Of a DNA stretch of 64,000 nt, positions 17,982 through 45,963 are shown piece after piece. The position numbers were made by a program, and so were the translations under genes. A model generated the notes under the pieces. That model saw only the letters and a program-made list of their open reading frames with translations. It ran no database searches and was not told where the DNA came from. The stretch's first letter is position 1; every line of letters starts with the position of its first letter. The DNA is taken from contig JAWNGF010000010.1 in assembly GCA_037039685.1 (NCBI GenBank), positions 1 through 64,000 on the forward strand. The letters are read 5' to 3'. Source of the DNA: Ceratobasidium sp. AG-K. Taxonomy: Eukaryota > Basidiomycota > Agaricomycetes > Cantharellales > Ceratobasidiaceae.

Positions 17982-18010
17982 ACAACAGTAAGTTTAGACT
18001 GGGGGAGCTA

Positions 18011-18533: not shown

Positions 18534-19704
18534 TGTTATATATCTGAGAGTTGCAGCTACTTGTATGTACAAGTGATATAACTACAGAATACACACAGTG
18601 GAACAATATAAAGTAATGTCTCAGTAGTCTGAGATGCTCTCAGTAAGTAAGCAATCTAGTTGCACACTTAATGGAATTGATACTAAGCTTTCCTACTGTA
18701 GAGTGTATGTACACTAGTAATAGAAAGAGCAGGAGTACTGAGCTCAGGTTCCCTTAGCTATTAAATGTCACTGTTTCACACTCCTAGTTGCAATGAACTA
18801 AGTATGTACTAATCTTAGGCTATTCCCTAAATGCCTTCCTTGTTCTTACTTGTAAAAGCACTATAAGACGTCTGCAACCTTTCCTCTATAATAGGTACTC
18901 AGGAGATCCTTTTCTTTAGGCTAACAAATACTGTTTGAGGCACACAACAATAATGGGGGAAATCACACAGCCAAGCCAAAGCACAACAGATGTAGAGTGA
19001 GGTGAGGATGGAGGGCTCTTAGAGGGCATGTATTTATACCCTAGAGGCCTCAGAACACTAGTCATCTGGTTGTGGCTATCATTGGGGGCATCTACCAATG
19101 ATAGGAGGGGTGGATGAACACTGATGCCTTGATGACTAGCATTCATGGAGTCAGAGTGCTTTGGTTGGCTGGAACATATATTATGAGTCATCTAACTAAT
19201 TGCTCCAGTCAAGTAACTATACTAAATCACTATCTACAAGCTATGCAGCTCTCAAGATCTGGTGGCTGCTGAAATGAGTCATTTCAGCACCTTGACAAGC
19301 CACGAGACATATCGCGGGAAATAGCCGATCAATTCACATAAAACAAATGCGATCGGCTGAATTGGAAGCTTGCGAGTCAGTCGCAAGTTCAAGCTAAGCG
19401 AACAGATCAGTATTGGTGGAGATACAAGTATAACAATGTATCTCTCCCTAAGCGCCAAAGACAATAAACTTAGACATTTCATATCTTTATGAAATCCCCG
19501 CATATAGAGACGCAAAAGACAGTGAATTGAAGCTACTAGAGAGTAATACATTTCGACATAAAGAAGTAGCACAAAAGTAGCGTTCAAGAGGGAGTAAAGA
19601 CAGTTACAAAACTGCATACATGCAAACAAGCAGAAAAGTCGCCACAAGCATAGGTTTGGATTTCAGTATGTTATTCCTATGACAGAATGTCAGTATCCAT
19701 AACA
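18534..19704 (-). repeat. E1 3' LTR
   Basis: 1,171 bp with TGTTAT..ATAACA ends. It is nearly identical to the copy at 44793-45963; differences were noticed near 19335, 19403 and 19498. On the minus strand it follows a purine-rich tract (TTGGATTGGGAGGGCTA) that primes plus-strand synthesis in this class. A TATAAATA box lies at 19031-19038. Confidence 0.93.
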
Positions 19705-19749
19705 TAGCCCTCCCAATCCAAACATATGGTTGACTTACAAGCTAGCAAG

Positions 19750-20622
19750 CTAGGCAGAGACAGCAATGGCACCATTCTGACCAAAGAAAAAGTGGAACAG
19801 GGGAGAAGGCTCAAAAATGCGCCCAGTTTGCTCCTCAAATCCATTCAGGTCATTATGGTCCACCTCAATCTGATCCTCATCTTCTTCCTCCTGGATAACA
19901 GCCTCAGTACAACCAGAATCCTTGGAAGTATCAGAAGGCAGGAAGGTGGGTGAAGAGGGGAAGAAGGCAGGATCAGGGGAATGGGCAGAATGCTCCCTAG
20001 TCCATTCCAAGCAGTGCTCCCAATGAGCCCTAGCCAACTTCATGTGACCACAAGGCCAAGAAGGCAGGTCCATAGGAATACACTTAGCACATGCACCTTT
20101 GAACAGGGCAAGGCAGTGGAGAGCAACTATCATACCAAGGGCCCAAAGTTGACAGTGGGACACCCTGAAATCAAGTTCTTCCTTGGAGGAGAAACTAACC
20201 TCCCAAAATTCATTCTGGAAAGGTGTTCCAGGGCAAACATGGGGGTCTAGTAGACAAGGTTCAGCAGGGTAGCTTAGCCTAGCCTCCTTAAAAGCATTGT
20301 ACAAGGGAGAATCAGAGTTATAGTTGTCAATATGTTCCATAGTGTCACAATAATTGCCAACAATATCCCTAATCTGAAGCAAGGCATCTACAAGAGCAAG
20401 GACAGTAGCAGTGGATAAGTACCAAAGCTTTTTCCCATCCTGCTCAGTGCAGCAAACCTCAATTCCCTCCCTGAACTTGCGCTCAAGAATAGATGGTGAC
20501 ATGAAAAAGCCTGAGTCCTGCTCTACATAGTAGGGGCCATATGCTTGCAGGATATTGGCATATCTAGTAGCCAAGAACCTAACATGGTGCACAGGCATAG
20601 AACTAGTCTTGTTCAAGCACAT
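19750..20622 (-). CDS. E1 accessory gene 3: 290-aa protein of unknown family
   Basis: An uninterrupted 290-residue frame lies between the acidic-protein gene and the polypurine tract of E1. The ATG at 20622 is preceded by a TATA box about 115 bp upstream and a CT-rich leader, suggesting its own transcript. The core (residues about 35-200) contains SPSIL, LVDALLQIRDIVGNYCDT and LWALGMIVALHCLAL; the last looks like a buried helix. The tail has a run of acidic residues (EEEDEDQIEVDH). No signal peptide or known domain was recognised. A diverged, frameshifted paralogue sits at 16954-17981 at the same place in E0, so the gene has been carried by this lineage for some time. Function is unknown. Confidence 0.8.
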   Translation of the reverse strand: MCLNKTSSMPVHHVRFLATRYANILQAYGPYYVEQDSGFFMSPSILERKFREGIEVCCTEQDGKKLWYLSTATVLALVDALLQIRDIVGNYCDTMEHIDNYNSDSPLYNAFKEARLSYPAEPCLLDPHVCPGTPFQNEFWEVSFSSKEELDFRVSHCQLWALGMIVALHCLALFKGACAKCIPMDLPSWPCGHMKLARAHWEHCLEWTREHSAHSPDPAFFPSSPTFLPSDTSKDSGCTEAVIQEEEDEDQIEVDHNDLNGFEEQTGRIFEPSPLFHFFFGQNGAIAVSA

Positions 20623-20732
20623 CTTGGGGTAGGAAAGTGATAGGAAATGGAAAGTAAGAGTTAAGGCAAGAATGCAGAAGAGAGCTTGTCTGTAGAGACT
20701 GCTGCTGGTCTGTAGTTGCTTCAGAGAGCCTT

Positions 20733-20743
20733 GTTATATACCT
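20733..20743 (-). promoter_or_regulatory. TATA box for E1 accessory gene 3
   Basis: On the minus strand the sequence GGTATATAACAAGG is followed by a leader of about 100 nt rich in C and T that contains ACTACAGACC and ends before the ATG at 20622. This is a stronger core promoter than expected inside a retroelement and suggests transcription independent of the LTR. Confidence 0.5.
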
Positions 20744-20980: not shown

Positions 20981-21682
20981 TCAATGGGATCCTTGGCTAA
21001 TTTCAGTCAAGATCTGGGCCACAAACCTTTCAAGGTCAGCAGGCTCCAAAGGAGGATCCTGATCATCTGGAATCTCCTCATTGTTAGGAACATTCCAGAG
21101 TGAGTCAGTAACCACTTCCATCAGAGGAGGCATGGAGGGGGAGACAGGCACCTCCTCAGCAGACTCTTCTGAGTCCCAATCTGAAAAATCGTCCCAGATC
21201 TGGTCCTCAGCAAGCCTAGAACTTCAAAGTAAAGTTAGCCTTGCATAGTGGAGCATCAGAATACTCACCTATCCCATGTACCAGCCCAAAGTGGTCCATC
21301 ATACCCATAATTGACAGGAGTATACCTGACAAAGTCATCCAGCCAGGTATCAGGAGCACTAGGTCCTTCCTCATCATCTGATAGGATAGATATTCAGCCT
21401 AAAGTATTAGGGGACACAGCCATACTCACCAGACTCTGAGTCATAGTCAGGATTGACATCACAATGCACTCCTGGTCCAGAAAGAACCCATTGGTACCTA
21501 GCCCATCCTTGGCTAGCCAAGATATCCAATATACCAGGAGGAGTAGGGGGTTGCTCTGGAGCAGCAGTTGAGTCTAGGGAGTTAGACATAGTAGACTGGA
21601 AGTGTGCAGATAAGGAGACTTGATGGAGACAATTCAGAGACTCTGAGCTTAATACATCATTAAGTTCCAAGAGTTTGTGCAT
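20981..21682 (-). CDS. E1 accessory gene 2: 198-aa acidic protein with two introns
   Basis: Exons 21682-21430, 21377-21269 and 21215-20981 (253, 109 and 235 nt) sum to 597 nt, giving 198 residues. Both introns (52 and 53 nt) have GTGAGTAT donors and CAG or TAG acceptors, and splicing converts a closed frame into a continuous one. The product is rich in Asp/Glu, Pro and Trp: for example PPTPPGILDIL, DYDSESDDEEGP, WLDDF, WDDFSDWDSEES. It has no membrane segment and no motif I recognise. It lies between the membrane-protein gene and the 290-aa gene. Introns on the sense strand of a retroelement are unusual because the genomic RNA must escape splicing there. Confidence 0.7.
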
Positions 21683-22046: not shown

Positions 22047-22415
22047 TTACTGAGGATGATAGGCAGGTTCAGGCCTTGTCAAATGGGTCATACTGTCAAG
22101 AGGAATGCCTATGGAAGCAAATTCCTCATCTCCAGTGATGACTGTAACCTTGCAAACATCATGGGGAGTGATATTTACAGGTTTATCTCTCCCATTTACT
22201 TTGAGAGAGAGCCTACCAGGGATGGAATACCTAACTATACCAATGTGATAGTCCAACCTGTAGGTGTGGGGGTCTAAGACTTTGACTTCAACATGGGCAC
22301 CCCATTTGACATGTTGATATCCATGTTGCCTATACCAATAGACTACTGCTGCTATGCCAAATATACTGGGAAGCAACAGAACAAACATGATAAGCAAAGG
22401 GAGGTCATTAACCAT
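22047..22415 (-). CDS. E1 accessory gene 1: 122-aa single-pass membrane protein
   Basis: ATG at 22415, stop at 22047. Residues about 5-28 form a strong hydrophobic helix (LPLLIMFVLLLPSIFGIAA) near the N-terminus, followed by about 95 mostly polar residues with VKVLDPHTYRLDYHIG and GDEEFASIGIPLDS. It is the first gene after pol, the position env occupies in some Ty3 elements, but it is far too short for an envelope protein and has no cysteine pattern or furin-like site. The stop overlaps a GTAAGTAC donor-like sequence, so a slightly different spliced end is possible. Function is unknown. Confidence 0.6.
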   Translation of the reverse strand: MVNDLPLLIMFVLLLPSIFGIAAVVYWYRQHGYQHVKWGAHVEVKVLDPHTYRLDYHIGIVRYSIPGRLSLKVNGRDKPVNITPHDVCKVTVITGDEEFASIGIPLDSMTHLTRPEPAYHPQ

Positions 22416-22564
22416 AGTGAAAAAGAGTATGTAGTGGTGGTATTAGAGCGCAGTGAGTTCAACAGCAATTTGTTATGTTTGACAGGCCTTAAGCGCTGGA
22501 CTGTCAAAAGTAGCAAACTGAGATCCAGAGAGTATAACCATGATGTCTGGAATATAATGGGGAG

Positions 22565-23123
22565 TTAATTCGCATTTTCAGCTATTTTTTTCTGTTCCCA
22601 TTCTCTCAGTATCTCAGGAGCATTGGTGAGTGCTCTCTTGTTAAGCCATAGATTATGAGTATCATCATAGCCTAAGAACTTAACTAAGTACTCTTTTTGC
22701 CGCCTATGTCTCTTCTTTACCCATTTCTCTTTCAGAATGGCTTCAACTTCATATTCAGGATGGTTCTTGAAGTCCTCTCTGCTCAGGTTCTTAGTAGGCC
22801 TCTCAATATCAGATTTATCCTTATTGTAAGACTCTAAATGTGCAATGTTGATTACTGGATGTATCTTATAGCTGGAAGGGATTTCTAGCCTATAAGAAAC
22901 ATCAGAGACTCTTTCTTTGACAGTGAAAGGTCCATCATAGCGCATTAGAAGCTTGGTTCCCTTTCCTTTTTGCTGCCTAAGCAGTCTAAGGGTATGAGGA
23001 TTAATAAGGACTTGGTCTCCTGGCTCAAAGGTAATAAAGCTCCTATCCTTGTTGTAATACTCCTTCTGCTTAGCTTGTCCAACAGTGAGAGCATTGGTAG
23101 CCTGTAAGCAAATGGAATTCATT
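22565..23123 (-). CDS. E1 pol, C-terminal part (integrase tail and chromodomain)
   Basis: This is the rest of the E1 pol gene after the insertion of element A. Joining it to 31015 with one copy of TCATT gives the continuous sequence EGMNSICLQATNAL in the same frame (the inserted length plus TSD is divisible by three). It encodes the GPY/F-type integrase tail (FEPGDQVLINPHTL, KLLMRYDGPFTVKE, YKIHPVINIAHL) and a chromodomain-like end (EYEVEAILKEKW, EYLVKFLGYDD, NLWLNKRAL). It ends at TAA 22565-22567, 150 nt before the membrane-protein gene. Chromodomains guide integration to particular chromatin. Confidence 0.9.
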
Positions 23124-23612
23124 TGTCATGACCTGTCCCGCCCTCTGTTTCTCCTTCTGCGGACTCATGGCTTGTATCGGCGCCTTATGCGCCTCTTCTG
23201 TATAGATGTGCCCTCTCCCTTGTTTAGTGAGGTGTATGGATGATGTGTCACCATGAGTCATATGACTCATGCTGTTTTCTATTGGCTGGCCTGCGCAGCC
23301 CCTTTATGACTTGGACCTTGACTCAGACAAGTGACTCATGTATATACTATGACTCACTTGTTCTCTGAGTATATATACTGGCATGCAAGCATGGTCATCC
23401 CCAGCTTGCTTCACCTCGTCAACTCTCCCTGCAGTGTGTGATCAGAGGCACTTGGCTACTTAGCCACTACAGTAGCCACTTGGGATTTGGAGCTAGGACT
23501 TCTACTTAGAAGCTAGTGATTTCCCTTAGCAATTTAGTCTACTTAGACTTATCGCTCACAGTCAACAAGGCGATTAGCAGTTGTCAACTCTACTACTTAG
23601 CAGGTTGCGACA
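23124..23612 (+). repeat. Element A 5' LTR
   Basis: 489 bp, TGTCATGACC start and GTTGCGACA end. A TATATATA box at about 23370-23377 precedes the expected transcript start near 23403. It differs from the 3' LTR at roughly fourteen positions, nearly all CpG versus TpG or CpA. Confidence 0.92.
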
Positions 23613-23626
23613 TTGCAAAGCAAGCT
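23613..23626 (+). promoter_or_regulatory. Element A primer-binding site of self-priming type
   Basis: Directly after the LTR, AAGCAAGCT at 23618-23626 is the reverse complement of AGCTTGCTT at 23403-23411, about 33 nt downstream of the TATA box, that is, at the likely 5' end of the RNA. There is no TGG start as expected for tRNA priming. Confidence 0.6.
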
Positions 23627-23775
23627 CTTTTCCGCTGAGCCACAAGAAAACAAGATCATGTGACCTCTCAACAATGTTCACAAGATCCTTGAGCACAGCG
23701 TCAAGCAGGCAGGCTACTGAGCCCGCGCCACAAATAGTCGAGCTACAATCAAACCCATCAAGAGGAGCAAGGGAT

Positions 23776-25878
23776 TGAGCTGGAGATTGGACGGCCCTGC
23801 TTAGAAGCAATAGCTGGGTATCAAGACCTCCATCTACTAGCGTCCCGGGAGGAATCGGAAATATTATCGAAATTTCAGGAACTCAAGGAGAAGCATCTAC
23901 CTCAAACAAACAAGGGTCCACTTCTCCAACTATCCAAAATGTTGAACAACCGTCCAACACTCCTCCTCCACCAGGGCCACAAATCAGTCAAAGGGACATA
24001 GTTAGCCCCAGAGCACATCGTATCATTAGGATACCGGCATCACCTAGGAACGCCACTCCGGGGCCATCAAACACCGCCCAAGCACTACCCCCACAAGCAC
24101 ACACCATGACAACCGGAAGGCAGCGGCCACTAGAAATGCCAAACTTTGACAACATTTTTCCTCCCGCAACGGGAACTCCAGTAGGGCCTATGGTACCCAC
24201 ACCGGCGTCAATGCCAGGAATGATAGTGACCACTAGGACACATAGCGCAGCCAGCGTACCTTCCACGTTCAAATCCCAACAAACTGTTGAAACCATCTCT
24301 CAGGATGAACGCCTGAGAAACAAATTACTGGTAGAAAACGTCAAAGGAAGAAGGGTCAAAACCCTAGAAAGAATTTTCAATACACTACAGGTCCAATACC
24401 AACAAGAAAATGCAGTTCAAGCCCTGAGAATCAAAGGCCTAGAACGCTGATGGGAAATCCAGGTGGCCGATACTACAAATATGATGCAGCAAATTGAACG
24501 CATTGCTTCAAGGACCGAAGATGGGGTCAACACCTTCTACAAACGTCTCTGAAATGTTGATCGCGCACAACAAAGGATCGAACAAACATTTGAGCAGATC
24601 AACCAACAATTAGTGGCTCAAAACCAATTGATCACCCAGAACCTACAAAACCAAGTAGGACGAATCAATAGAATGGAAGAAACCATGGGAAGAATGGCTG
24701 AAGGGATGAGGAACATCACAATCGCCCTAGGACGGATTGATGAAGAAGTTGCGGAAGGATTCCAAGAACAAGCCAATCGACTCAGGGAAATCCAAACAGG
24801 AGGACAAGAAACGTTTGACCTTCTTGAACAAATTGGGGCCAATGCCCAAGTAGAATTGGATCACTGACGCGAGGAGTCTAAACGCACTTCCATAGAAATC
24901 CCAAACCCTAGGGAACCTCCCCCACATAGGAGAAATATCTCACCTCAGGAAAGACAATCTCCCTCATTTGAAGTGCAAGGGCAATCAGGCTATCAAATTA
25001 GGGACAAAGGAAGAACTCTTATCATCCAAACAGGACAAGGAGGAAATGGGAATGGATCAGGTCCACACATCAAAATGCCCAAAGCATTCAAAGGAACAAG
25101 GGGAACGGCGGCTGAAACATTTCTTGCACAAATGAAAGCATTTTTCCGTCTGAACCCAAATCAATATGATACAGAAGAACGTCGGATTGTCGCCACCCTG
25201 ATGAATATGGCAGAAGGAGCAGCAGGAAACTGGGCACAACCCGCTCTCAATTGGTACAACGACAATGAGAACCACCCCTGGCTAGAATCTTGGGAAGCAT
25301 TCCAAAGTGCCTATGAGAAGCAATGGAGCGACCCCAGCAAGAAAATTCAAGCGGAACAAGGAATCCAATGCCTCTATCAAAACATATCCATAGGTGAATA
25401 CGTCTCTGAATTCCGACTTCTTGCACCAGAACTCGATTGGAACAATGCCGCCCTGATTGCGCGCTTCAGGCAGGGGCTGAGCAGACTCATCAAAGCAGAA
25501 CTCGTGCGCAAAGAACTCAGGGACAAAAGAACTGCCACACAAAGGAACCTAGAAGGATGGATTGACATTGCCCTCCAAGCCAAAGAAATTCAGAAACTCA
25601 CCAACCCACAGAACAAGGGAAAGAAAGAAGACAAGGGCGAGGGATCCAAACCTTCCAGCCAAGTGAAAGGAGATCTTGTTCCAAAGGCAGAGAAGACACG
25701 CTGAAAGGAGAACAACCTCTGCATCAAATGTGGAGAAGCGGGACATGCAATTGCTGATTGCAAAAAGGAATGGACCTACAAGGACAAAGGAAAGGCACCG
25801 ATGAGAGGGAAAGCCAGCAAAATGAAGGAAGGGGAAGGGGAGGAGACCAAGTCCACCAATTCGGAGTCGGAAAACTAG
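23776..25878 (+). pseudogene. Element A gag (nonsense-mutated)
   Basis: A single frame runs from about 23776 to a TAG at 25876-25878 but is broken by TGA codons at 24448-24450, 24550-24552, 24865-24867 and 25702-25704. The readable ATG at 24106 is internal; no clear initiator is left. The product has a Pro-rich N-terminus, a long Gln-rich coiled-coil-like region (24300-24860), the Ty3-type capsid region (FLAQMKAFF, WALPxLN-like, WESWEAFQSAY) and a CCHC knuckle CIKCGEAGHAIADC near 25730-25775. Each TGA fits an ancestral CGA (Arg). Confidence 0.85.
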
Positions 25879-28800
25879 ATGGGCGTCGCTCCACTGTGTG
25901 TGAAGACACCCCGATATCCTCTCTGCAAAATGTATATTACTGCAAAGCCACAAATGAATCACCCATGGTATATGCACAAGCAGAGGGAATCACAGAAAAC
26001 ATTCTCTACTCTCATTGACTCCGGATCCAGTAGAAACTTTATCGACCTGAACTTTGCAAAGAAAAACAAAATTCCTTTGATCTCCTTAAAAACCCCTAGG
26101 AACGTGGAAATGATTGACGGAAAAACTCAAAAGGATTTGATCCGTCACCGTTGCAAATTGAAATTCAATATAGAAGGAAGAACTTTCAAACAAAGATTCT
26201 ATGTCATGCCAACAGGAACCCAGCCTATGATCCTTGGCATGACATGGTTGAAGGAAACAAACCCTGAAATTTCTTGGGCCCCATTCTCTATCAAGTGGAG
26301 AAAGGAGCCTGACATCCAGGCAAAAGCAGGAATGTTACAAGAACTTCCAGAAGAACTCAAGGACTTTGCCGATGTCTTTGACAAAGAACGTTACGACAAG
26401 CTGCCGGAACACAGGGAATGGGACTGCAAAATTGACTTCTATGACAACAACAAACTCCCAAAACCAAAGAAAGCTTATCCCCTCTCACCAAGAGAAAGGG
26501 AGGCCACAAAGGAGTATGTGAAGTCGGAACTCAAGTCAGGAAGAATCAGACCCAGTAATTCCCCCATTGCTGCTAGCCTATTCTTTGTCACGAAGGCACT
26601 GAAACCAGGACAGACCGTACCAGACCTTAGACCAGTTGTTGACTACAGAGGGGCAAATGCGGAAACTATCCCAGACTGCTACCCCATACCTCTGATGGAT
26701 CAACTCCTGGAAATCTTCAAGAAGACTAGCGACAAATCAAACAAAGAACTGTTCATCACCTCTCTGGACCTGAAAAATGGTTTCTGGAATGTGAGAATCA
26801 GGGAAGGAGACGAATGGAAAACAGCATTTAGCACTTCCAAAGGCCTCTTCAAATATACCGTGATGGCCTTTGGACTGAAAAATGCACCTTCAACGTTCCA
26901 AAGAATGATGGACAATATCCTCAGAGACTTGATCAGAAAAAAGATAGTAGTCCACATCAACGATATCTTGATTATCTCTAGAGGAAGAAACCAACACACT
27001 TTGGACATCAGAGAAGTCCTTGAAAGGCTACGCAAGAACAATCTATATGGGAACCTCAAAAAGTGCACCTTTTACGGCAAAAAAGCCGATTGGGTAGGCT
27101 TTGTTGTGGACGAGAATGGTATCTCCATGAACAAAGACAAGATCAAGACTATCCAGGAATGGCCTGTCCCAAAAACTGTCAAGCAGCTACAAGCTTTTGT
27201 TGGCTTCTGCAACTTCTACAGGAGATTTGTAGTCTCTTTCTCCTCCATCGTCAAACCTTTGACTCAACTCACTCGAAAGGACCAAAAATGGGAATGGAAG
27301 GAGGCACATCAGGAGGCTTTTGAAAACCTGAAAAGGATGATCTCAGAAGAACCAGTACTGGCACATCCAGACGAATCAAAGCAATACTTCCTGGAAACGG
27401 ACGCCTCAGGAGTCGCTCTAGGAGCGATCCTTAGTCAACGACAAAACAATGGATACCTGCACCCGATTGGCTTCCTTTCCAAAAGCTTCAAGGATGCGGA
27501 ATTGAATTATGACACACACGACAAGGAGCTTTTTGCTATCATTGAGGCATTGAGACATTGGCGCATTCACCTTGAAGGGACAAAGGAACCAGTGATCATC
27601 TACACGGACCACAAAAACTTGACCTACTGGAAAGACTCTGTCAATTTCAACCGAAGACACCACAGATGGCTTCTGATGCTAGCAAGTTACAATTTTGAAA
27701 TACACTATTGGCCTGGGAAGATGTCAGAAAAGCCGGACATTCTCTCTAGAAGAAGTGACCATGGGGACATTGCATCAGCAGAGCAGACTATGATCTCCGC
27801 CAAAAGATTCAAGGGCTTTGCCGCCTTGATGGGATCAGACCTCATGAGTGAACTCAAAGAAGCACAGGAAGAGGACAAAGCCCTACAAACCTTGATTGTC
27901 ACCACAAGGGACAAGGAGTCCCTTCCGCCGTCCGTGACAAAGCAATTCAAAGACTACGAATGGGAGGAAAACCTCTTGTGGTATCAGGGAAGAATTATTG
28001 TCCCTGATGAAAAAGACATCAAACTGAAGCTGCTACAACTGCATCACGACACACCAATGGCTGGCCACCAAGGACAGGCTAGAACCCTGGAGCTTCTCTC
28101 AAGAAGATACTATTGGCCCGGCATGAAAAGCCAAGTGAATCGCTTCGTCGAAAGTTGCAAAATCTGCCAAAGAGGGAAGGGAAGCAAAGGACACTTACTG
28201 CTCAAACCCTTACCCATCCCGGAAAAACCTTGGGAAAACATTGCTTACAATTTTATTGTGAAACTACCAAAATCTGAAGGCTTCGACAGTGTCCTTGTTG
28301 TGGTGGATCGCTTTTCCAGAATGACACATTTCATTGCCTGCAACAAAGCGACCAACTCGGAACAACTTGCCGACATCTTCATCAAGGAAGTATGGCGACT
28401 CCATGGTTTCCCAAAAACCACGGTCTCCGACAGAGGAACCACTTTCAAATCCCACTTCCTGGAGGCTGAGTACAAAAGACTCAATATCCAACCCACCTTC
28501 AGCGCGGCCTTCCATCCTGAAACCAATGGTCTTGCGGAAAAAACACACCAGTGGCTAGAAGGCTGGTTGAGAATATTCTGCAACCATTGCCAGGACAACT
28601 GGGCCAAATGGCTACCTATTGCGGAATTCTGCCACAACAACCACAAAAATCGCATTACAAGCAAGTCACCCTTTGAGATTGTCTATGGAATGACTCCAAA
28701 ATGGTCCATTGAGGAATATATGACTCAATCTCCAGAAGCCGACAAGTGGACAAAGGATATGGAAGCTGTGTGGGAAGAAGCAAAAGCCATGATGGAATAC

Positions 28801-30485: not shown

Positions 30486-30525
30486 GCCCAGGTGCTCCAC
30501 TACCTGGCCCTATGTGGGGGGGCAA

Positions 30526-36026: not shown

Positions 36027-36040
36027 TTACAAAACAAGCT
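36027..36040 (+). promoter_or_regulatory. Element B primer-binding site of self-priming type
   Basis: ACAAAACAAGC at 36029-36039, two bases from the LTR, is the exact reverse complement of GCTTGTTTTGT at 35855-35865 in the LTR, about 30 nt after the TATA box. This is the arrangement of Tf1/sushi-type self-primed elements. Confidence 0.65.
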
Positions 36041-36047
36041 TAACAAC

Positions 36048-37340
36048 ATGTCTATTCAAGAAGATGGAGGATCACGTCCTTCATCCACTATATCAACAAG
36101 AAGAGGACCCTGTCGAGCTGCAAGGCCGACAGGATCACTAAACAAGCAAGATATTGCACAAGCTCAAGCGGGAGGGCCCGTCCGATCACGCTCCCAAAGT
36201 CAAACATCAATGCCGGGAGCCTTCGGCATTACCAACATGACAACAGTACAAGAAGAAGAACCCACTATCACAAATAGAGAACCGGGAGATCTTACAAATG
36301 ACCCCACTCCTGCTGTAATCTGCATTTCAACCGGAAGTCCAGGGCCATCACGTCCCTTGTGGCCACTAGGATCTAGGAGACAGTTTTTTTCTCCCCAACC
36401 CAAAGCTCATGGGGGTGTCTCGCTCGTTCCCATTAGACCTCCTCCTACACCACATCCAGATGCAGAATCTACCAGGATCGACAAATTAGAACTGAGAATC
36501 CAACGACTGATTGAGAACCCAAGCATCGGTAGTGGACCGCGTCGTCCCAAGGTCACTCGCCCGGAAGCCTTTGACGGAAAGAAAGGAGAGGGTGCTGAAA
36601 TGTTCATCACACAAATGGAGAGCTACTTTGTATGTCTAGGCGATCAGTACACTTCCGACGAAGAAAGGATCCGCAAAGCCCTAGCAAACTTCAAATCCGA
36701 GAACAAAGCCGCCACCCACTGGGCACAAGTACTCTTACGATCGCTTAACCAAGGGGGAAATAACCAAAATCTTGCCTCATGGGAAAGTTTCAAAGCACAC
36801 TTCATGGAACAGTTCAGCGACCCTAACAAAAAAGCTAAAGCCGAATCGGACATCCAAAAATGCAAACAAACCAATTCGGTAGCAAACTATGCTTCGGAAT
36901 TCCGATACCTTCTGGTAGACGTAAACAGGGGACAGGAAGCTCTGATCAACCAATTCAAGGAAGGGTTGAAGTCTGAAGTCAAAACCGAACTAGCTCGTTT
37001 TGAACTAACCCTGATCAATGAAGATGGGACAGAACGAGAACTTTCCCTTGACCGCTGGATCTCAATCGCAATCTCTATTGACCAGAAATTGCAACAAATC
37101 AAGGCCTCTACAGGGAAGAAGGCAGCCCAACCAACCGCTAGCAGACAATCCTCTACAAAGCGGCTACCCGACGAAGTATACAAAGCAAGGATAGCAACCA
37201 ACCGCTGCCTGAAGTGCGGACAGGAAGGACACCGTTCATTCAAATGCCCGTCCAAGGAATGGATAACGACGGAACCTAGCATTAAAGGAAGGGAGGCAAC
37301 AATAATGGAAGACTCGGGAAAAGAAGGGGTCTCCCTCTAA
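36048..37340 (+). CDS. Element B Gag
   Basis: 430 residues from ATG 36048 to TAA 37338-37340. It has a Ser/Pro-rich N-terminus, a short coiled-coil-like stretch (IDKLELRIQRL), the Ty3-type capsid region (MFITQMESYF, THWAQVLLRSLN, WESFKAHFMEQF) and one CCHC knuckle CLKCGQEGHRSFKC near the C-terminus. Near its end is the heptamer G GGA AAA (37316-37322) in the correct phase for a -1 shift into pol. Role: forms the particle and binds RNA. Confidence 0.92.
   Translation: MSIQEDGGSRPSSTISTRRGPCRAARPTGSLNKQDIAQAQAGGPVRSRSQSQTSMPGAFGITNMTTVQEEEPTITNREPGDLTNDPTPAVICISTGSPGPSRPLWPLGSRRQFFSPQPKAHGGVSLVPIRPPPTPHPDAESTRIDKLELRIQRLIENPSIGSGPRRPKVTRPEAFDGKKGEGAEMFITQMESYFVCLGDQYTSDEERIRKALANFKSENKAATHWAQVLLRSLNQGGNNQNLASWESFKAHFMEQFSDPNKKAKAESDIQKCKQTNSVANYASEFRYLLVDVNRGQEALINQFKEGLKSEVKTELARFELTLINEDGTERELSLDRWISIAISIDQKLQQIKASTGKKAAQPTASRQSSTKRLPDEVYKARIATNRCLKCGQEGHRSFKCPSKEWITTEPSIKGREATIMEDSGKEGVSL
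37316..37322 (+). promoter_or_regulatory. Element B gag/pol -1 frameshift site (GGGAAAA)
   Basis: In the gag frame the bases read G GGA AAA. Slipping one base back moves the ribosome into the pol frame, which is open from 37322 onwards. The same heptamer in the same phase is found in C (48603-48609) and H (63157-63163). A downstream stimulating structure was not established. Confidence 0.6.
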
Positions 37341-37342
37341 CT

Positions 37343-40300
37343 GTGTGTGGAGAGACCAAAAAACCGGCAACGGAAACAATGTACTTTAGAGCAACAAATG
37401 AGTCAACCATTGTTTACACAAACGTTGCCGGAATCACAGAACTTATCCCAACCCTTATCGATTCTGGAGCATCAAGAAACTTCTTGGACATCTCTTGGGC
37501 TCGATCCAACAATATTCCACTCATGGAACTTTCCACTCCAAGAAAAGTAATTGGTATCTGGGGGAAGGAACTCTCTCACCAAATACGTTTCAAAGCTAAG
37601 CTGGAACTAGACGTGGAGGGAAGAACCTTCAAACAAGTCTTCTTTGCTATGCCTACTGGAGAAACCAAACTTATCCTAGGACTGGAATGGTTAGAAGAAG
37701 CTAACCCGGTCATCAATTGGAAAACGAAGCACATATCATGGCGGCCAGAACCCATCCAAGCAAGAACGGCCTCAATAGACGACCTACCCAAGGAATTCAA
37801 AGAATTTGCCGATGTCTTCAGTGAAGAGAAATTCAAAAGAATCCCGGATCATCGTCCATACGACTGCGCAATCGACTTCAAGGAAGGAGCTGAACTTCCA
37901 AAACCGGCCAGACTGATCCCACTCTCTCCAGCAGAATCAATTGCACTAAGAGAATACTTGGATGAAGAAATCGCAGCGGGAAAGATCCGACCAAGTAAAT
38001 CACCCATTGCTTCACCTTGTTTCTTTGTCAAAAAACCGATCGATCAAAAAAATCCAGGGGCAGTACGCCAACTACGACTTGTTCAAGACCTCAGAGGAGT
38101 AAACGCCATTACAAAGGACGACAGATTCCCGATGCCCCTAATGGAAGACCTCCTGGATAAAATCAAAGACGCGAAAATTTTCTCCAAGATCAATCTACGC
38201 ATGGGTTTCAACAATATCAGAATTAGGGAGGGCAACGAATGGAAGACAGCTTTCAGAACAAAGGAAGGACTGTTTGAATACATCGTCATGCCTTTTGGAC
38301 TAAAAAACGCGCCCGCCATTTTCCAAAGATATATGAATCACATTTTTCATGATCTTATCAACGTATGTGTCATAGTATACATTGACGACATCCTAGTCTT
38401 CTCTAAGGACAGAAGTCAACATACCGTGGATGTCAGAAGAGTACTAAAGATCTTACTGGAGGAAAATCTTTTCGCAAAGCTTCCAAAATGCGAATTCTTT
38501 GTCACCAAATTGACATATACTGGACTTGGAATCAGCGATTCGGGCATCTCAATGGAGGAAGAAAAGGTCAAGGCAATAAAGGAATGGAAGGAACCAAGAA
38601 CGGTCAAGCAGGTCCAAGCATTCCTAGGATTCGCAAATTTCTACCGAAGATTTGTACTGAATTTCAGCCAATTAGCAAAACCCCTGACAACCTTGACAAG
38701 AAAGGAGAACAAGTGGGAATGGGGAAACGAGCAGCAGGAAGCATTTGAAGCCCTAAAAACGGAAATCAGCAAGGAACCCACTCTACGCCATCCGAACCCT
38801 GACAAACCCTTTTTTTTGGAAACAGACGCAAGTGGAGTAGCAATGGGAGCTATCCTGTTGCAAAGGCAGGAGGATGGCTACCTGCACCCTATTGCTTTCC
38901 TTTCAAAATCTTTCAACGAAGCTCAACTCAACTACAACGTCCATGATAAAGAACTTATGGCAATTATAGAATCTTTAACACACTGGAGGCTATACCTCGA
39001 AGGAACAAAGGAACCCATCACCATCTACACCGATCATAGGAACCTACAGTTCTGGAAGGAAGCAAGAACATTCAACCGTCAACACGCAAGATGGCACCAA
39101 TTACTTGCTTCCTATAACTTTGACATCATATACCGCCCTGGAATCCTGTCATCTAAACCGGACCTTTTGTCAAGACGATCAGACCATGAAGATACCCCCA
39201 CGCCTGAACAAGTTATGATAGCTGCCAAAAGGTTCAAGGGGTTTATGGGACAAGTAGACACAGACATCATAGAAACAATCAAGGAGGCACAGGAAACAGA
39301 CGAAGGGTTGACACAAATCAAAGAAATCTGCAAATCGAGGGAAACGTTACCAAAAACCCTACAACACAGTGCAAAGGATTATGATTTCAAGGAGGGACTA
39401 TTATGGTTCAAGGGAAGGATTTACATGCCAGAAGATAAGGAATCCAGGCTGGCCATCATGCGAGTTCACCACGACTCAAAAATTGCGGGTCATCAAGGAC
39501 AAGCTAGAACTTTGGAACTAATATCAAGAAGATACTTCTGGCCAGGAATGAAGCAAAGCGTAAACAGATACGTGGAATCCTGTGAGACTTGCCAACGGAC
39601 GAAGGGATCAAAATCGATAGTTCCGGTCAAGCCTCTAGAGATTCCAAAGGGACCATGGGAAGACATAGCGTTTGACTTCGTAGTGAAATTACCAAAATCG
39701 AAAGGAGCAGATAGCATCTTAGTAGTGGTGGACCGATTCTCAAGGATGGCGCATTTCATACCCTGCAAAGAATCTCACACGGCAAGCGACCTTGCAAACC
39801 TTTTTATCACAAATGTTTGGAAACTACACGGCTTTCCAAAAAGCACGATCTCAGACCAAGGGACTACTTTCAATTCCAAACTTATGAAAGCCATTTATGA
39901 GAAAATTGGAACTAGCCCAGGTTTCAGTACTGCCTACCACCCCCAAACAGATGGAATAACGGAGAGAATCAACCACTGGATGGAAGGCTGGCTACGATCA
40001 TTTGTTAACTACCGACAGGATGATTGGGCGGACCTGTTACCGATTGCGGAATTCAGCTATAATCTACAGAAGCACCGCGTAACGGGTAGTTCCCCTTTCG
40101 AAATTGTCTATGGCAGGGAACCACTGTGGAACATCTCAGCAGAAGAATCAGCGGTTCCGGAAGCAAACAACATCACGAAAAAATGGCGTAAAATCCGCGA
40201 CGAAGCTATTGCATCAATGGAAAGCCAAAGGCTCCCAGAAGAAGAGCCAAGAAACGAGTACAAGGAAGGAGATCTAGTATGGCTATTGGGAAAGAACATT

Positions 40301-41257
40301 CAAACAAAAAGACCCTCAAAAAAGCTGGATAACAAAAAACACGGGCCATTTGTTGTGAAGCGAAAGATAGGGTCACACGCTTATGAGCTCACTTTGCCAG
40401 CAACTATGAGGGTGCACCCTGCTTTCCACATTGATTTGCTCAGCCCTTACAAAGAAGACACAGAATTCAACCGAAACCAACCCCGACCACCGCCGATCAT
40501 AACAGAAGAAGGAGAAGAGGAATACAAAGTAGAAAAAATCATGGACTGGAAGGAAACAAAGGATGGGCTTTTCTACAGGGTCAGATGGAAGGGTTATGGA
40601 AACAAAGAAGACACGGAACAAAGGGCAGAAGACTTTGGCCACCTGTCCAAGATCATCAAGGACTTGCTACGGGGACACCCCGAGGCTCCAACACCTTCTA
40701 ACTATGATCCGAAAAAGATAAAAGGAAAGGGGAGCACAATGAGTAGCGACATCTGCAAGACTTGCGACTACTCCAAGCTTCACTCCTCACTCTACTCACT
40801 AAATCTTCTCTGTTGCCTGCAATGCCTGCCATCACCCGCTCCACCATCGCCAACAACCTCACCCGTGTCCTTGACGGACCAGCGTTTGCTACGGCGAGAA
40901 TCCTTGATGCAGGGGCCGCTCTCTACGTCTTCAAGAGGTCCCAGCAAGGCTCCGGAAGAATGCACTTTACGGCATCGGACGACATCTTGCACTCGGACTT
41001 GGGAGAATTCCAATGGGTCGGAAAAAAATGGCCGACATGCATGCAACTCCTACAAAAGGACATCTTTGTCTGTCGAGGATGCGCGGCGTTCCAAGTTTCG
41101 GAGGTTGTCCTCCTCTCCACCCATATGCTCGGGGTTGTGGAATGGGGACAAGAGGGGGCATACTCAAGTGAATGGGTACCAGGATACGATGGGAGACCAC
41201 CAACACTCCGGCCCAGGTGGAATGACGCTTGGGACACCAACTACAAAAAGGACCTGA
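37343..41257 (+). CDS. Element B Pol (PR-RT-RNaseH-IN-chromodomain)
   Basis: The frame is -1 relative to gag and open from the slip site; the first internal ATG is at 37379. Protease: PTLIDSGASRNFLD. RT: RLVQDLRGVNAI, MPFGLKNAPAIFQ, and YIDDILVFS (about 38378-38404). RNase H: LETDASGVAMGAIL and YTDHRNLQFW. Integrase: HHDSKIAGHQGQ with CETCQ for zinc, and DDE residues in VVVDRFS, ISDQGTTF and GITERIN. A chromodomain follows (EEYKVEKIMDWKE, YRVRWKGYG). The frame is not closed after the chromodomain; it continues to 41257 and overlaps the accessory ORF by 436 nt. One small oddity: the RT segment FSKINLRMGF has Asn where relatives have Asp. Confidence 0.93.
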   Translation: MCGETKKPATETMYFRATNESTIVYTNVAGITELIPTLIDSGASRNFLDISWARSNNIPLMELSTPRKVIGIWGKELSHQIRFKAKLELDVEGRTFKQVFFAMPTGETKLILGLEWLEEANPVINWKTKHISWRPEPIQARTASIDDLPKEFKEFADVFSEEKFKRIPDHRPYDCAIDFKEGAELPKPARLIPLSPAESIALREYLDEEIAAGKIRPSKSPIASPCFFVKKPIDQKNPGAVRQLRLVQDLRGVNAITKDDRFPMPLMEDLLDKIKDAKIFSKINLRMGFNNIRIREGNEWKTAFRTKEGLFEYIVMPFGLKNAPAIFQRYMNHIFHDLINVCVIVYIDDILVFSKDRSQHTVDVRRVLKILLEENLFAKLPKCEFFVTKLTYTGLGISDSGISMEEEKVKAIKEWKEPRTVKQVQAFLGFANFYRRFVLNFSQLAKPLTTLTRKENKWEWGNEQQEAFEALKTEISKEPTLRHPNPDKPFFLETDASGVAMGAILLQRQEDGYLHPIAFLSKSFNEAQLNYNVHDKELMAIIESLTHWRLYLEGTKEPITIYTDHRNLQFWKEARTFNRQHARWHQLLASYNFDIIYRPGILSSKPDLLSRRSDHEDTPTPEQVMIAAKRFKGFMGQVDTDIIETIKEAQETDEGLTQIKEICKSRETLPKTLQHSAKDYDFKEGLLWFKGRIYMPEDKESRLAIMRVHHDSKIAGHQGQARTLELISRRYFWPGMKQSVNRYVESCETCQRTKGSKSIVPVKPLEIPKGPWEDIAFDFVVKLPKSKGADSILVVVDRFSRMAHFIPCKESHTASDLANLFITNVWKLHGFPKSTISDQGTTFNSKLMKAIYEKIGTSPGFSTAYHPQTDGITERINHWMEGWLRSFVNYRQDDWADLLPIAEFSYNLQKHRVTGSSPFEIVYGREPLWNISAEESAVPEANNITKKWRKIRDEAIASMESQRLPEEEPRNEYKEGDLVWLLGKNIQTKRPSKKLDNKKHGPFVVKRKIGSHAYELTLPATMRVHPAFHIDLLSPYKEDTEFNRNQPRPPPIITEEGEEEYKVEKIMDWKETKDGLFYRVRWKGYGNKEDTEQRAEDFGHLSKIIKDLLRGHPEAPTPSNYDPKKIKGKGSTMSSDICKTCDYSKLHSSLYSLNLLCCLQCLPSPAPPSPTTSPVSLTDQRLLRRESLMQGPLSTSSRGPSKAPEECTLRHRTTSCTRTWENSNGSEKNGRHACNSYKRTSLSVEDARRSKFRRLSSSPPICSGLWNGDKRGHTQVNGYQDTMGDHQHSGPGGMTLGTPTTKRT

Positions 41258-41586
41258 GCGACTGGAGGATGGAGAGGGGCAGATATCAGAAGGAGAAAAT
41301 CGAATGGGAGCCCTACTGGTGGAAGAAGGAGGAGACTGACGTGTCGGCATGGAAGGAGGCAGAGCCCAATGTACGACAATGGGATGAGGAGTTTGTGGAG
41401 GCCCAGGAGAGGGTTTTGGACTGGTCCCAGGCGGACTGGACGAAGGAGGAGACTTGGGAAGAATGGGAGAAGTTCTTGGACGAACCGGGAAATACCGTCT
41501 TCAATCCCATCAACCTGACCTTGGAGGACAAAGAGGGGTTGGAGGAATATATGCTGAAGAAGGAAAAAGACTGCGCAGTGCAGTAG
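40822..41586 (+). CDS. Element B accessory protein (CxGC, Trp-rich) between pol and 3' LTR
   Basis: 254 residues from ATG 40822 to the TAG at 41584-41586, in the -1 frame relative to pol. The N-terminal half has AALYVFKRS, DLGEFQWVGKKW and the cysteine pair VCRGCAAFQVSEVVLLS. The C-terminal half is highly charged and Trp-rich (DLSDWRMERGRY, WEPYWWKKEE, TWEEWEKFLDEPG). No signal peptide, membrane segment or known fold was recognised. A close homologue with one nonsense codon is in D (56226-56960), and a possible distant one is in A. Persistence of the frame in separate families points to selection in active copies. Function unknown; a nucleic-acid or capsid partner is only a guess. Confidence 0.82.
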   Translation: MPAITRSTIANNLTRVLDGPAFATARILDAGAALYVFKRSQQGSGRMHFTASDDILHSDLGEFQWVGKKWPTCMQLLQKDIFVCRGCAAFQVSEVVLLSTHMLGVVEWGQEGAYSSEWVPGYDGRPPTLRPRWNDAWDTNYKKDLSDWRMERGRYQKEKIEWEPYWWKKEETDVSAWKEAEPNVRQWDEEFVEAQERVLDWSQADWTKEETWEEWEKFLDEPGNTVFNPINLTLEDKEGLEEYMLKKEKDCAVQ

Positions 41587-41627
41587 GTCCGTTCAGGTCC
41601 CCCAAACGGACTCCTAGGGGGGAGTAA

Positions 41628-42083
41628 TGTTGTGAGCTAGCTCTCTCCATCGGACTCGCCCGTTGCTTTGCCCGCCTGTCTCCCGCTTTGTGTTGCGTTC
41701 CCGTTTCCGTTTGCCGCGTTGCCACCTTCTTGTGGTTATTCTGTTACATTGTGTAACGCGGCAGTGCTTTGTACGAGTCATGTCTGTTTATACAGCATGA
41801 CTCACATGGACACTCCTGACTGGCTTTCTTGTTTGACTCATGTGGCTGCGCTTTGTATGACTCGGCCGTTTTGTGAATATATATAGAGGACCAACAAGCC
41901 TGGTAATCCCAGCTTGTTTTGTCTCGTCAAAACATCCCCTTTGAGTGACACTTTGAACCACCCCTACCCTCAAGAGCCTACAGACACTTAAGTGTGTTGC
42001 GGTTCAAGAGGTCACTTAGGTCTTAGTGCCGTCCACTCCCCATTGCGGCTTGTCTCATTGCCACCAAGAAGAAGCTTACGACA
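41628..42083 (+). repeat. Element B 3' LTR
   Basis: 456 bp, starts TGTTGTGAGC right after the polypurine tract and ends CTTACGACA before the TGTAG duplicate. It has the same length as the 5' copy. Confidence 0.94.
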
Positions 42084-44713
42084 TGTAGCAAGAGTTGCAG
42101 TGCTGAGCAGAGTTTTCCATTGCTGGGGAGCTCCTCTAAGCACTTCCTCAATAGCTTCTGGATCTGTGAAAGTATATGCTGCATCAAGAAGGTCTTTCTT
42201 GCGCATGATATACTGTGAAGGAGTTTCTGACTCAGTATCTTTACCTGGTTCCCTATACTTGGCCTGATGAGCTTTAGATCTCAACTTGTTGAGCCAATCG
42301 GGGTTCCAGAAGTATCTAGCCATATTTTCCTTCATAAGGCGCCAGTCCTGCATCATATATTGCTGCCAAGCAGGATCTAGTGCATTAAACCATATTTTGG
42401 CATCCTTCTCAAACCTTAGTGGTACTACATAACCCAGTTCTCCCAAGAGATCTGGGTGTCTCCTTACTACATGGTCCAATTGAGTGATCCATTCCATCAG
42501 CTCTTCTGCACCACCATAGTATTTGGGTACCACCTGTTCTATTTTGAGACGCGAATCAAAATGTGGTCTAGTAAGCCTGGGAGCTGTTCCTGCAGGTCCT
42601 GGAGGTCCAGGGGGACCAGGAGGACCTACTAGATAGTAGTAATTCCCACCACCAGGAGGACCAGGGGGACCAGGAGGACCACCACCTTGTCTACCCTGTG
42701 GAGGAATTGGAGGACCACCATTCCCATTAGGGGGACCACCACTGCCTCCAGGAGGACCACCATTACCTCCAGGGGGACCACCATTATCTCCAGGGGGACC
42801 ATATGGGTCACCATTGCCTCCAGGAGGATTAGGAGGATTCCCACCATTGCCTGAACCACCATTACCTGGGTTTCCTCCTTGATCAGAAGGACCAGCTCCA
42901 GGTGGTCCACCATGGTGCCAATAGGGTGGATTCCTAGGTTGATCAGGAGGAGTTCTCTGACTTCCTTCATGGTTACTTAGGTCTTTACCATCCTTAAGGT
43001 CTGGTTGTTTGGTGGCAATCATGCCAGTAGCATGTTGATTCAACCTTTCTATATGTCCATATTGATTGTACCTTATGGGAGATGGCTGAAGAATCTCAGC
43101 AGTTTCTCCTTCCTCCAAGGGAGCTCTGGACCTATGTCTAGGCCTTCTAAGAGTATCATTAGAGTAAGGATCAACTACAACAGGTGCAGCAGTTACTTCC
43201 ACAGGTGCAACACTAGGCTGAGTACTAGTAGGTTGTAGTATACTACTAACTTTGGGTCCTAATTGAGAAACTACTGCAGTAGGAGGTTGGGTTAAAGCAG
43301 GTGGAGGAGAAGACAGAGTACCTCCTATCATATTGGAGAGCCTTCTTCCCATCACTCTTCCTGATCCAACTTTAGGTCTACTAGGAGTCTCAGGTATTGT
43401 TTCTTCCTCAATAGGTTTCATGGAATCCTTATTGAAGAAGGAAAAGCTCAATGGTTGGGAAACCATTCCTGATTTTCTAGGACCTATTCCAGTAGTACTA
43501 TTTCCAGGTAGGCCAAATGCAGTATTAGTAGCAGGGCCTAGTACTGAAACTTGAGGATTAGAAGATTGACCAAGTTGTTGCATTAGCCCAGGTGTAAACT
43601 GAGCTCCTCCAACAAATGGAGTACTCCTGAGGGGAGTAACCATTGGTATGGGACTTTTTCTAATCACATTGTCTTCAGGACTATTAGACCTAGTCTTGAT
43701 AAAACCAAAAGCACCAGATTTGCACCTATGGTAATACCTTGGAACCAGAGAAGGTGTCATAGTAGTTACTGGATCTTCAGACTCTTGCCTGAGAGCAAGG
43801 GGGTTAGGATTAGTAACTACTGCTTCAGCAGCTTCTCTAGCTCTAGGAGCATATATGGGGAACTGGTCAAAGTCTGTGGAATTATGTGACAACACAGTTT
43901 CCATATGACCTTGAATAGCTTTGCTCTTACCTTTATCCTCATTCCTTCTTAATTCCCTGTAAATGTAAGCCAAAAAGCACTCCACTTCATCCCTATAAAC
44001 TACAGCAGCTTTTTCATGCTGAGCTTTATTGAATGTAGTGTAAGTCTCTGTTGCAGGGTAGGAAGGAACTTCAGGATGGTCCACTTCATCTTCTGGAATC
44101 TCCCTTTGACAGTGCTGCCTATACAGAACCTTCAGATCTCTTTTAAAAGATCCATGTAGTGTATGATTAAAATCCATAACTACATCTTGAGAAGGGTTGT
44201 GTATCCATTTAGGAGCAAATACACAAAAGGTATCCAGAGTCTGAAGATAAGAGGCTGCCCATTTTCTTCCTTGAATTGATAGATAGATGTTATGCTCATG
44301 AGGAATTGGACTTTTAGAATAAATCTTCCAGCCAATAGCCCTAGCTAGCTTCCTTCTATCATTGATATCACTATACTGGCGCACAGTATTAGTGAGTTGA
44401 GCAGTAGCAGGAGTATATATAAGTCTCCTTCTATCAGACTCAGATAGTGCAGTAAATGAGGTGGAGGCCATAGGCAGATAGGGCATTAATGAGTACATGT
44501 AGTCCTCATCAGCTTCAATCTCTTGCCAGTTAAGACACTCCAATCAGACTGAGCATCATGGGCTGACCACCTATTTCTTTGAGGAAGATAGGAGGGTCCA
44601 GCAGTAGGGGTTCTAGGTCCTTGTTGTGACACTGAGTCTAGAGGAGTAACCTCCTCTTCAGCAGCAACAGTCCTAGATTCATGTAAGGAGGTGCTAGAAT
44701 TAGAACTAGACAT
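42084..44713 (-). CDS. E1 gag, N-terminal part with collagen-like Gly-Pro region
   Basis: Starts at ATG 44713 (MSSSNSSTSL), 79 nt inside the LTR. Near 44530-44543 the coding frame changes without an intron, so a one-base frameshift is present here (mutation or assembly error). The rest is open down to the B insertion. Order: a Ser/Thr-rich start, a helical region (SESDRRRLIYTPA to about 43900), a long Pro/Ser-rich linker, a Gly/Pro/Asn-rich block with GGPPGGNGG and GPPGPPGPPG repeats (about 42590-42930), then a capsid-like retrotransposon-gag region (EELMEWITQLDHVVRR, WFNALDPAWQQYMMQDW). It is large for Gag: with the C-terminal piece over 1,000 residues. Confidence 0.85.
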
Positions 44714-44774
44714 CTCTTAAGCACAGTATAGGTGTTGGGTAGTAATCCAATATATGTAGCAACAAAGATTACTA

Positions 44775-44792
44775 CCTGGGTCGCTTCACCAA
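44775..44792 (-). promoter_or_regulatory. E1 primer-binding site of tRNA type
   Basis: One base inside the 5' LTR end the minus strand reads TGGTGAAGCGACCCAG. The TGG start is complementary to a tRNA CCA end, unlike the self-priming sites of A, B, C and H. The tRNA would end CTGGGTCGCTTCACCA; its identity was not determined. Confidence 0.5.
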
Positions 44793-45963
44793 TGTTATAT
44801 ATCTGAGAGTTGCAGCTACTTGTATGTACAAGTGATATAACTACAGAATACACACAGTGGAACAATATAAAGTAATGTCTCAGTAGTCTGAGATGCTCTC
44901 AGTAAGTAAGCAATCTAGTTGCACACTTAATGGAATTGATACTAAGCTTTCCTACTGTAGAGTGTATGTACACTAGTAATAGAAAGAGCAGGAGTACTGA
45001 GCTCAGGTTCCCTTAGCTATTAAATGTCACTGTTTCACACTCCTAGTTGCAATGAACTAAGTATGTACTAATCTTAGGCTATTCCCTAAATGCCTTCCTT
45101 GTTCTTACTTGTAAAAGCACTATAAGACGTCTGCAACCTTTCCTCTATAATAGGTACTCAGGAGATCCTTTTCTTTAGGCTAACAAATACTGTTTGAGGC
45201 ACACAACAATAATGGGGGAAATCACACAGCCAAGCCAAAGCACAACAGATGTAGAGTGAGGTGAGGATGGAGGGCTCTTAGAGGGCATGTATTTATACCC
45301 TAGAGGCCTCAGAACACTAGTCATCTGGTTGTGGCTATCATTGGGGGCATCTACCAATGATAGGAGGGGTGGATGAACACTGATGCCTTGATGACTAGCA
45401 TTCATGGAGTCAGAGTGCTTTGGTTGGCTGGAACATATATTATGAGTCATCTAACTAATTGCTCCAGTCAAGTAACTATACTAAATCACTATCTACAAGC
45501 TATGCAGCTCTCAAGATCTGGTGGCTGCTGAAATGAGTCATTTCAGCACCTTGACAAGCCACGAGACATATCGCGGGAAATAGCCGGTCAATTCACATAA
45601 AACAAATGCGATCGGCTGAATTGGAAGCTTGCGAGTCAGTCGCAAGTTCAAGCTAAGCGAACGGATCAGTATTGGTGGAGATACAAGTATAACAATGTAT
45701 CTCTCCCTAAGCGCCAAAGACAATAAACTTAGACATTTCATATCTTTATGAAATCCCTGCATATAGAGACGCAAAAGACAGTGAATTGAAGCTACTAGAG
45801 AGTAATACATTTCGACATAAAGAAGTAGCACAAAAGTAGCGTTCAAGAGGGAGTAAAGACAGTTACAAAACTGCATACATGCAAACAAGCAGAAAAGTCG
45901 CCACAAGCATAGGTTTGGATTTCAGTATGTTATTCCTATGACAGAATGTCAGTATCCATAACA
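44793..45963 (-). repeat. E1 5' LTR
   Basis: 1,171 bp, same length and almost the same sequence as 18534-19704. On the minus strand it starts TGTTATGGATACTGAC and ends ATATATAACA. A TATAAAT box lies at 45292-45298 on the minus strand. The GCAGC duplicate follows at 45964-45968. Confidence 0.93.

Follow-up and report, generated by a model that had tools for sequence, protein, structure and literature searches.

Full-length fungal Ty3 elements are mostly minimal, with gag and pol only, and a locus of nested elements in Ceratobasidium sp. AG-K raises the question of whether such an element can carry a set of additional genes as a regular part of itself. The window, by which we mean the whole 64,000-nt stretch that was analysed, is C10:1-64000 (contig JAWNGF010000010.1) of a 53.6-Mb assembly, and searches were made in this assembly and in a protein database. 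A preliminary description had placed here a 13-kb Ty3 element with precise long terminal repeats (LTRs), interrupted by two nested elements, A and B, and had assigned to it, on the element strand after pol, genes for a membrane protein, an intron-bearing acidic protein and a 290-aa protein (p290). All of this was upheld, the element itself by its LTR pair, by the duplications and by copies of 13021-13024 bp. The element, E1, is a Ty3/Gypsy chromovirus with three sense accessory genes between the chromodomain and the 3′ LTR. Sequence comparison finds the cargo throughout the family and places its last gene, p290, in at least two sister families as well.

The E1 element and its three accessory genes

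E1 lies on the minus strand of the window, as do all of its features given here, and comes to approximately 13.0 kb by coordinate arithmetic when A and B are taken out. The 5′ LTR (44793-45963) and the 3′ LTR (18534-19704) are 1171 bp each, differ from each other at 3 positions and have the ends TGTT...AACA. The 5-bp target duplication around E1 is real, but the GCAGC first given for it is the complement of the word on the element strand, which reads GCTGC. One base inside the 5′ LTR is a putative primer-binding site that starts with TGGTGAAGCGACCC (44774-44791), and a candidate polypurine tract, GGATTGGGAGGGCTA (19705-19719), adjoins the 3′ LTR. Just inside the putative primer-binding site we noticed a 10-base inverted repeat, GGTAGTAATC ... 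GATTACTACC (window 44700-44792, minus strand), which could fold into a hairpin close to the 5′ end of the genomic RNA.

The first part of gag (42084-44498) extends as far as B, its 828-aa frame continuing into that element. B, a Ty3 element on the plus strand (35571-42083) with the duplication TGTAG, is followed by the end of gag and most of pol, from protease to integrase core in Pfam searches (31015-35570). Within pol lies A, a second Ty3 element on the plus strand (23124-31014; duplication TCATT), and the end of pol, with an SH3-like domain (PF24626) and a chromodomain (PF00385), occupies 22565-23122, with the stop at 22565. E1 has the features of a Ty3/Gypsy chromovirus, namely TG...CA LTR ends with a 5-bp target duplication, the order protease, reverse transcriptase (RT), RNase H and integrase, and a chromodomain that ends the integrase (37.4 bits; cut-off 25.1). 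The RT, RNase H and integrase zinc-binding domains exceeded the Pfam cut-offs, and the integrase core (32.0 bits; cut-off 32.6) and protease (23.2 bits; cut-off 28.2) fell just under theirs.

The three accessory genes come after the pol stop. Gene 1 (22047-22415) encodes a 122-aa protein with a single N-terminal transmembrane (TM) helix at about residues 5-31; beyond the helix there is no confident structural model, the predicted local distance difference test score (pLDDT) being below 50 in 88 of the 122 residues. Gene 2 encodes an acidic protein of 167 aa (isoelectric point, pI, 4.05) in three exons (21430-21589, 21269-21377 and 20981-21215), separated by GT-AG introns of 52 nt (21378-21429) and 53 nt (21216-21268) with the signals GTGAGT...CAG/TAG; the splicing is predicted from these signals and from the open frame of the joined exons rather than from RNA. 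Gene 3, encoding p290 (19750-20622), ends 45 bp from the 3′ LTR and is preceded, about 110 nt upstream of its ATG, by TATATAA (20734-20740), a candidate TATA box. A model of p290 built from five sequences predicts, at residues ~10-211, a compact domain that is rich in alpha helix and includes a beta hairpin (mean pLDDT 72-88 in 17 of 20 blocks of ten residues between 11 and 210, and 46-57 in the other three; predicted template modelling score 0.64), and a disordered C-terminal tail of 78 residues (pI 4.05). A hydrophobic helix of p290 is ambiguous as a TM segment. Pfam gave no family above cut-off for the 122-aa protein, the acidic protein or p290, and a fold search with the p290 model matched no known fold.

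Recurrence of the cargo in E1 copies and in sister families

At least 40 LTR matches of 882 bp or longer, plus one 64-bp piece, were found for E1; the counts are lower bounds, 40 of 49 candidates having been scored. Eleven elements account for 19 of the 40, and a 5′ fragment on C4 for one more; of the remainder, 15 are solo LTRs whose 5-bp duplication is exact and five are single LTRs lacking an exact one. The LTR reading left out the 5′ LTR that pairs with the C7 3′ LTR at 591505, as well as the surroundings of two C8 5′ LTRs. The two LTRs of an element were 0-3 substitutions apart in all eight elements measured, out of the 11 copies, and the E1 family is therefore young; the 5-bp duplications matched in six of the eight, the remaining two forming a tandem array. 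E1 is a recently active family.

Copies on C3, C4 and C7 measure 13021-13024 bp and have matching duplications and the same genes. The 122-aa gene is present and free of stops in 11/11 copies; p290 is likewise present in all 11, open in ten and with a 1-nt deletion in one; and the acidic gene is found in 10 of 11, with both introns intact in every one of the ten. The genes are hence part of the element rather than a host fragment unique to the window copy. A frame of 1538-1546 aa was found at the chromodomain in 8/11 copies. E1-type gag occurs at 12 places, which are the 11 copies and the C4 fragment, and contains stops in several copies. Since the C4 fragment stops within pol, about 5.25 kb in, it is not an example of a full-length element without the cargo.

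Some of these copies have been rearranged. In a tandem pair at C2:6588538-6613347 the middle LTR is common to both elements, GAGCG stands at both outer ends, and the two cargos have zero substitutions between them, being one 2-nt and one 1-nt indel apart. The C9 copy has a rearranged 5′ end, and its left end (C9:404010-405315) reads as a full LTR with its own duplication, 72 bp, a 64-bp LTR tail and then the inside of the element. The window segments 11503-18335 and 44793-47545 form a segmental duplication with C2:4088000-4105000 (99.4% identity along 6.8 kb on one side, 97.9% along 2.75 kb on the other). One target site, with equal flanking words, is occupied by a full-length E1 on C10 and by a solo LTR on C2; the two are probably one insertion that was later reduced on C2. 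A B-like insertion lies near the C2 solo LTR.

In the assembly p290 matched 14 loci, and the contexts of all of them were examined: 11 are E1 copies and three are pieces of a second family, E2, 38-39% identical to p290; outside elements there was no match to p290. The E2 copy L064, on C2, has in this order a chromodomain ORF (open reading frame; 53% to E1), a 131-aa ORF, a 340-aa relative of p290 (p340) with CATAAAAAG about 75 nt upstream, and an LTR-like start, TGTTATGGATCC. The other two pieces are 3′ fragments in the segmental duplication, one on C2 near 4.093 Mb and the other in the window (C10:16757-18251, plus strand), where a frameshifted p340 and an LTR start, 92% to the E2 copy on C2, adjoin E1 but lie outside it. 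The motifs S-x-x-IL, LVDA-x-x-Q-x-R and Q-x-W-x-x-x-MI are common to the E1 and E2 cores in the alignment and are weaker in a third family, E3. The E3 loci L066 and L067 have E-type chromodomains (53% and 47% to E1) and ORFs of 271 and 416 aa that are one family, 53% alike. The L066 protein was detected by hmmsearch with the p290-family profile (E 1.2e-5, 20.2 bits; the best of 16200 shuffled peptides gave 0.015 and 10.0 bits), and hhalign of the E3 and p290-family alignments gave P 1.6e-6 and a probability of 90, collinear over 119 columns. The E3 protein matched six loci (L066, L067, C16:574823, C2:4497689 and two short C12 pieces), of which two were examined for context. A possible relative in E4 (L068) was not significant (E 0.15), and the p290-family search of L069-L071, elements A and B and the 46-64 kb stretch gave no significant match. 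In a 10-row tree of the integrase C-terminus and chromodomain, E1-E4 grouped together (100/100) against A, B, C, D and a D-like copy, with no settled order inside the group. We define the p290 family by this shared core and by its place after the chromodomain of an E-clade element; such genes follow the chromodomain in two families besides E1, the relationship being clear in E2 and remote in E3. We also observed in E3 a second, Trp-rich gene after the p290 relative (L066:2799-3401, L067:603-1260), whose frames suggest an intron; shuffles revealed no relation to the acidic gene.

Relatives were found in the protein database as well. P0001 (293 aa, from a JGI contig) is 58% identical to p290 over its full length, P0002 (Ceratobasidium sp. 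AG-Ba, 11 members) and P0004 (C. theobromae) are about 35% identical to it, and P0003 is 98% identical to the 122-aa protein. P0001, P0002 and P0004 were compared as proteins only, and none of the four bears a functional name.

Selection, rival explanations and a possible role

The same boundaries across copies, the p290 genes in E2 and E3 and the relatives in Ceratobasidium led us to regard the module as the element's own, and 11 copies in the genome with homologues elsewhere argue that a three-gene cargo is not due to chance. Quite probably the module belongs to E1 and aids the replication of the element itself. Selection had been put forward as a check in the preliminary description. The 11 near-identical E1 copies make a weak test within the family. 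The ratio of synonymous to nonsynonymous variants was 4:4 in the 122-aa gene (pN/pS, the per-site ratio of nonsynonymous to synonymous variants, 0.29), 2:3 in the acidic gene (0.42) and 2:2 in the chromodomain end (0.26). Between diverged copies, the ratio of nonsynonymous to synonymous substitution (dN/dS; Nei-Gojobori) of p290-like genes was 0.24-0.59, with 0.33 for the E3 pair (dN 0.43, dS 1.30) and 0.24 for the E1-E2 p290 core, where dS is saturated; chromodomain controls gave 0.10 and 0.14, one of them with saturated dS. These values would mean that selection has maintained the p290 protein, less strictly than integrase. Between diverged copies the check thus favours purifying selection on the p290 family; within E1, where the test had no power, none was visible.

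Several observations weigh against this reading. Within E1, p290 has 2 synonymous and 9 nonsynonymous variants (pN/pS 1.23), and variable sites are not significantly fewer in coding (24/1746) than in noncoding sequence (25/1116; Fisher P 0.10); there is no sign of constraint on p290 in current E1 copies by this underpowered test. The E2 pairs gave dN/dS of just 0.50-0.53, the core (0.59) being no tighter than the tail (0.49), and part of the E2 changes is decay after insertion. The acidic gene is not strictly fixed in E1, the copy at C2:3258007 having lost it in a deletion of 746 bp whose junction bears a short repeated word, and neither the E2 nor the E3 loci yielded a relative of it. The similarity of the 122-aa protein to the 131-aa ORF of E2 is weak (4/500 shuffles were as good in local and 0/500 in global alignment). 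The L067 protein was missed by the p290-family profile and is tied in only through L066, to which it is 53% alike. Finally, Pfam gave no RNA-binding domain in the E1 accessory proteins.

What else could account for three genes in this position? The TM protein of 122 aa, together with p290, could constitute an env-like or cell-to-cell module that aids membrane passage or spread at hyphal fusion. The 122-aa product is short, however, and largely lacks a confident model (the 88 residues below pLDDT 50), no Pfam match above cut-off was obtained, and the counterpart of the hydrophobic p290 helix is less hydrophobic in E2, P0001 and P0004 (KD19 1.35-1.54), the hydrophobicity maximum of P0002 (KD19 1.34) lies elsewhere, and the matching helix of E3 holds an aspartate, as in a soluble core. 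We consider such a module unlikely. Slightly less probable again is copy-number control or exclusion, in which p290 or the acidic protein would restrain the element or exclude rivals. Small trans-acting proteins would suit this purpose and the copy number is modest (at least 11 copies and at least 15 solo LTRs with exact duplications), yet a self-limiting gene would be expected to be lost, and the p290 family has outlived the split of E1, E2 and E3.

That the genes are a captured host fragment, or a cargo carried for the host, has very little probability in our estimation. The acidic gene, with spliceosomal introns and found in E1 only, does look as a recent capture would, but 10-11 of the 11 E1 copies share the gene set and the 14 loci that match p290 are all E1 copies or E2 pieces, so that capture is disfavoured for p290. 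The heavy nesting of the window copy invites the suspicion that nested insertions or misassembly placed unrelated ORFs inside the LTRs; the C3, C4 and C7 copies, with 13021-13024 bp, matching duplications and the same genes, refute this, and we give it practically no credence.

We return to a module that serves E1 itself. E1 moves via RNA and both introns are intact in 10/10 copies of the acidic gene; therefore the RNA that was reverse transcribed had retained both introns, and E1 would need both a spliced mRNA, for the acidic gene, and an unspliced RNA, as genome. The three genes may encode small regulatory proteins made from subgenomic mRNAs, with a spliced mRNA for the acidic gene and the TATA element before p290 as a possible start; TATATAA before p290 and CATAAAAAG before E2 p340 would fit separate transcription. 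The accessory proteins would then act in trans on the RNA or particles of E1, and their likeliest job would be to prevent splicing and silencing of the full-length, intron-bearing genomic RNA and to secure its export, while the 122-aa protein might tether RNA or particles to a membrane. An analogy is provided by CERV of the Caenorhabditis elegans element Cer1, an accessory protein needed for export of unspliced RNA (PMC10309623). In the parts of that paper considered here, CERV resembles the E1 module in being lineage-specific, in belonging to a Ty3-related element and in that the genomic RNA retains splice sites; it differs in being spliced from gag-frame exons to later ones, whereas the E1 genes are separate ORFs, and the likeness drawn here is one of proposed role. 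A CERV-like model would lead for p290 or the whole module, with anti-silencing second. By this analogy a role in RNA export or anti-silencing is a tentative proposal, somewhat less likely to be right than wrong. The account as a whole, a selfish module of a young chromovirus that acts in trans on its own RNA or particles, we judge to be reasonably probable. It is rather doubtful, if conceivable, that a Ceratobasidium-like chromovirus clade has evolved a retrovirus-like complex genome, with regulatory genes, an internal promoter and introns, in which p290 would be Rev/CERV-like or anti-silencing.

Known systems, neighbouring elements and significance

To the preliminary description the module had looked undescribed. 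Its reading as a module is supported, but the novelty is narrower, because LTR elements, those of fungi among them, are already known to carry additional 3′ ORFs. In the portions consulted, a survey of fungal chromoviruses reports lengths from 4.4 to >13 kb and marks, in a figure legend, an "add. ORF" of unknown function (PMC2864245); its elements share with E1 the LTRs and the order RT-RNase H-integrase-chromodomain, and those portions describe no p290-like family or three-gene module among 25 species, which do not include Ceratobasidium or Rhizoctonia. Bdelloid rotifer LTR elements, in the sections of the source used, have a diverse ORF3 after pol, some with TM segments only, and are said to express it from spliced messages (PMC5408684). 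That ORF3 includes env, GDSL esterase and DEDDy exonuclease; no GDSL/DEDDy-type enzyme domain or env was recognisable by Pfam in the three E1 proteins, although remote enzyme folds, and hence a remote relation, are possible. Plant aORF elements, as far as the excerpts of two papers go, have a long region from pol to the 3′ LTR with conserved ORFs and, for gene23 of maize Grande, a reported internal promoter (PMC7264820, PMC11963269). The ORFs of Retand (mostly TRP28) and Grande are antisense, whereas the E1 genes are three in number and all sense to the element, so E1 lacks the antisense ORF that marks the Retand/Grande group. Extra ORFs are also mentioned for other LTR elements (PMC6431247), as are, for fungi, complex elements with domains added through multiple insertions (PMC3248453), and a survey of Rhizoctonia solani transposable elements mentions the usual domains alone (PMC7926851), each in the passages of these sources that were available. 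Within the same partial coverage of the literature searched, we met no p290-like family.

The statement that LTR retrotransposons normally have nothing, or one env-like gene, in this place also proved too strong, since elements A, B and D of the window each carry an extra ORF. That of A (29415-29867) is near the 3′ LTR and that of B (40822-41586) overlaps the end of the B pol frame; the two have a CRGC-containing stretch in common (3/500 shuffles score as high). In D, with LTRs beginning at 46104 and 52787, the extra ORF (52289-52762) overlaps the pol end and has relatives at L069:2027-2524 and L070:761-1258. The D-type ORFs contain repeated V/I-I-D-L-T motifs, e.g. FEIIDLTVD and TVIDLTDDKED, which presumably resemble SUMO-interaction motifs. 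Extra 3′ ORFs may be common among the Ty3 elements of this genome.

While at least three families split from one another, the E clade appears to have held on to an orphan accessory gene, to which E1 adds a membrane protein gene and an intron-bearing acidic gene. Because families with and without p290 reside in one genome, their comparison makes the question testable, and the E clade is a natural setting in which to ask what extra genes bring to a retrotransposon that is thought never to leave the cell.

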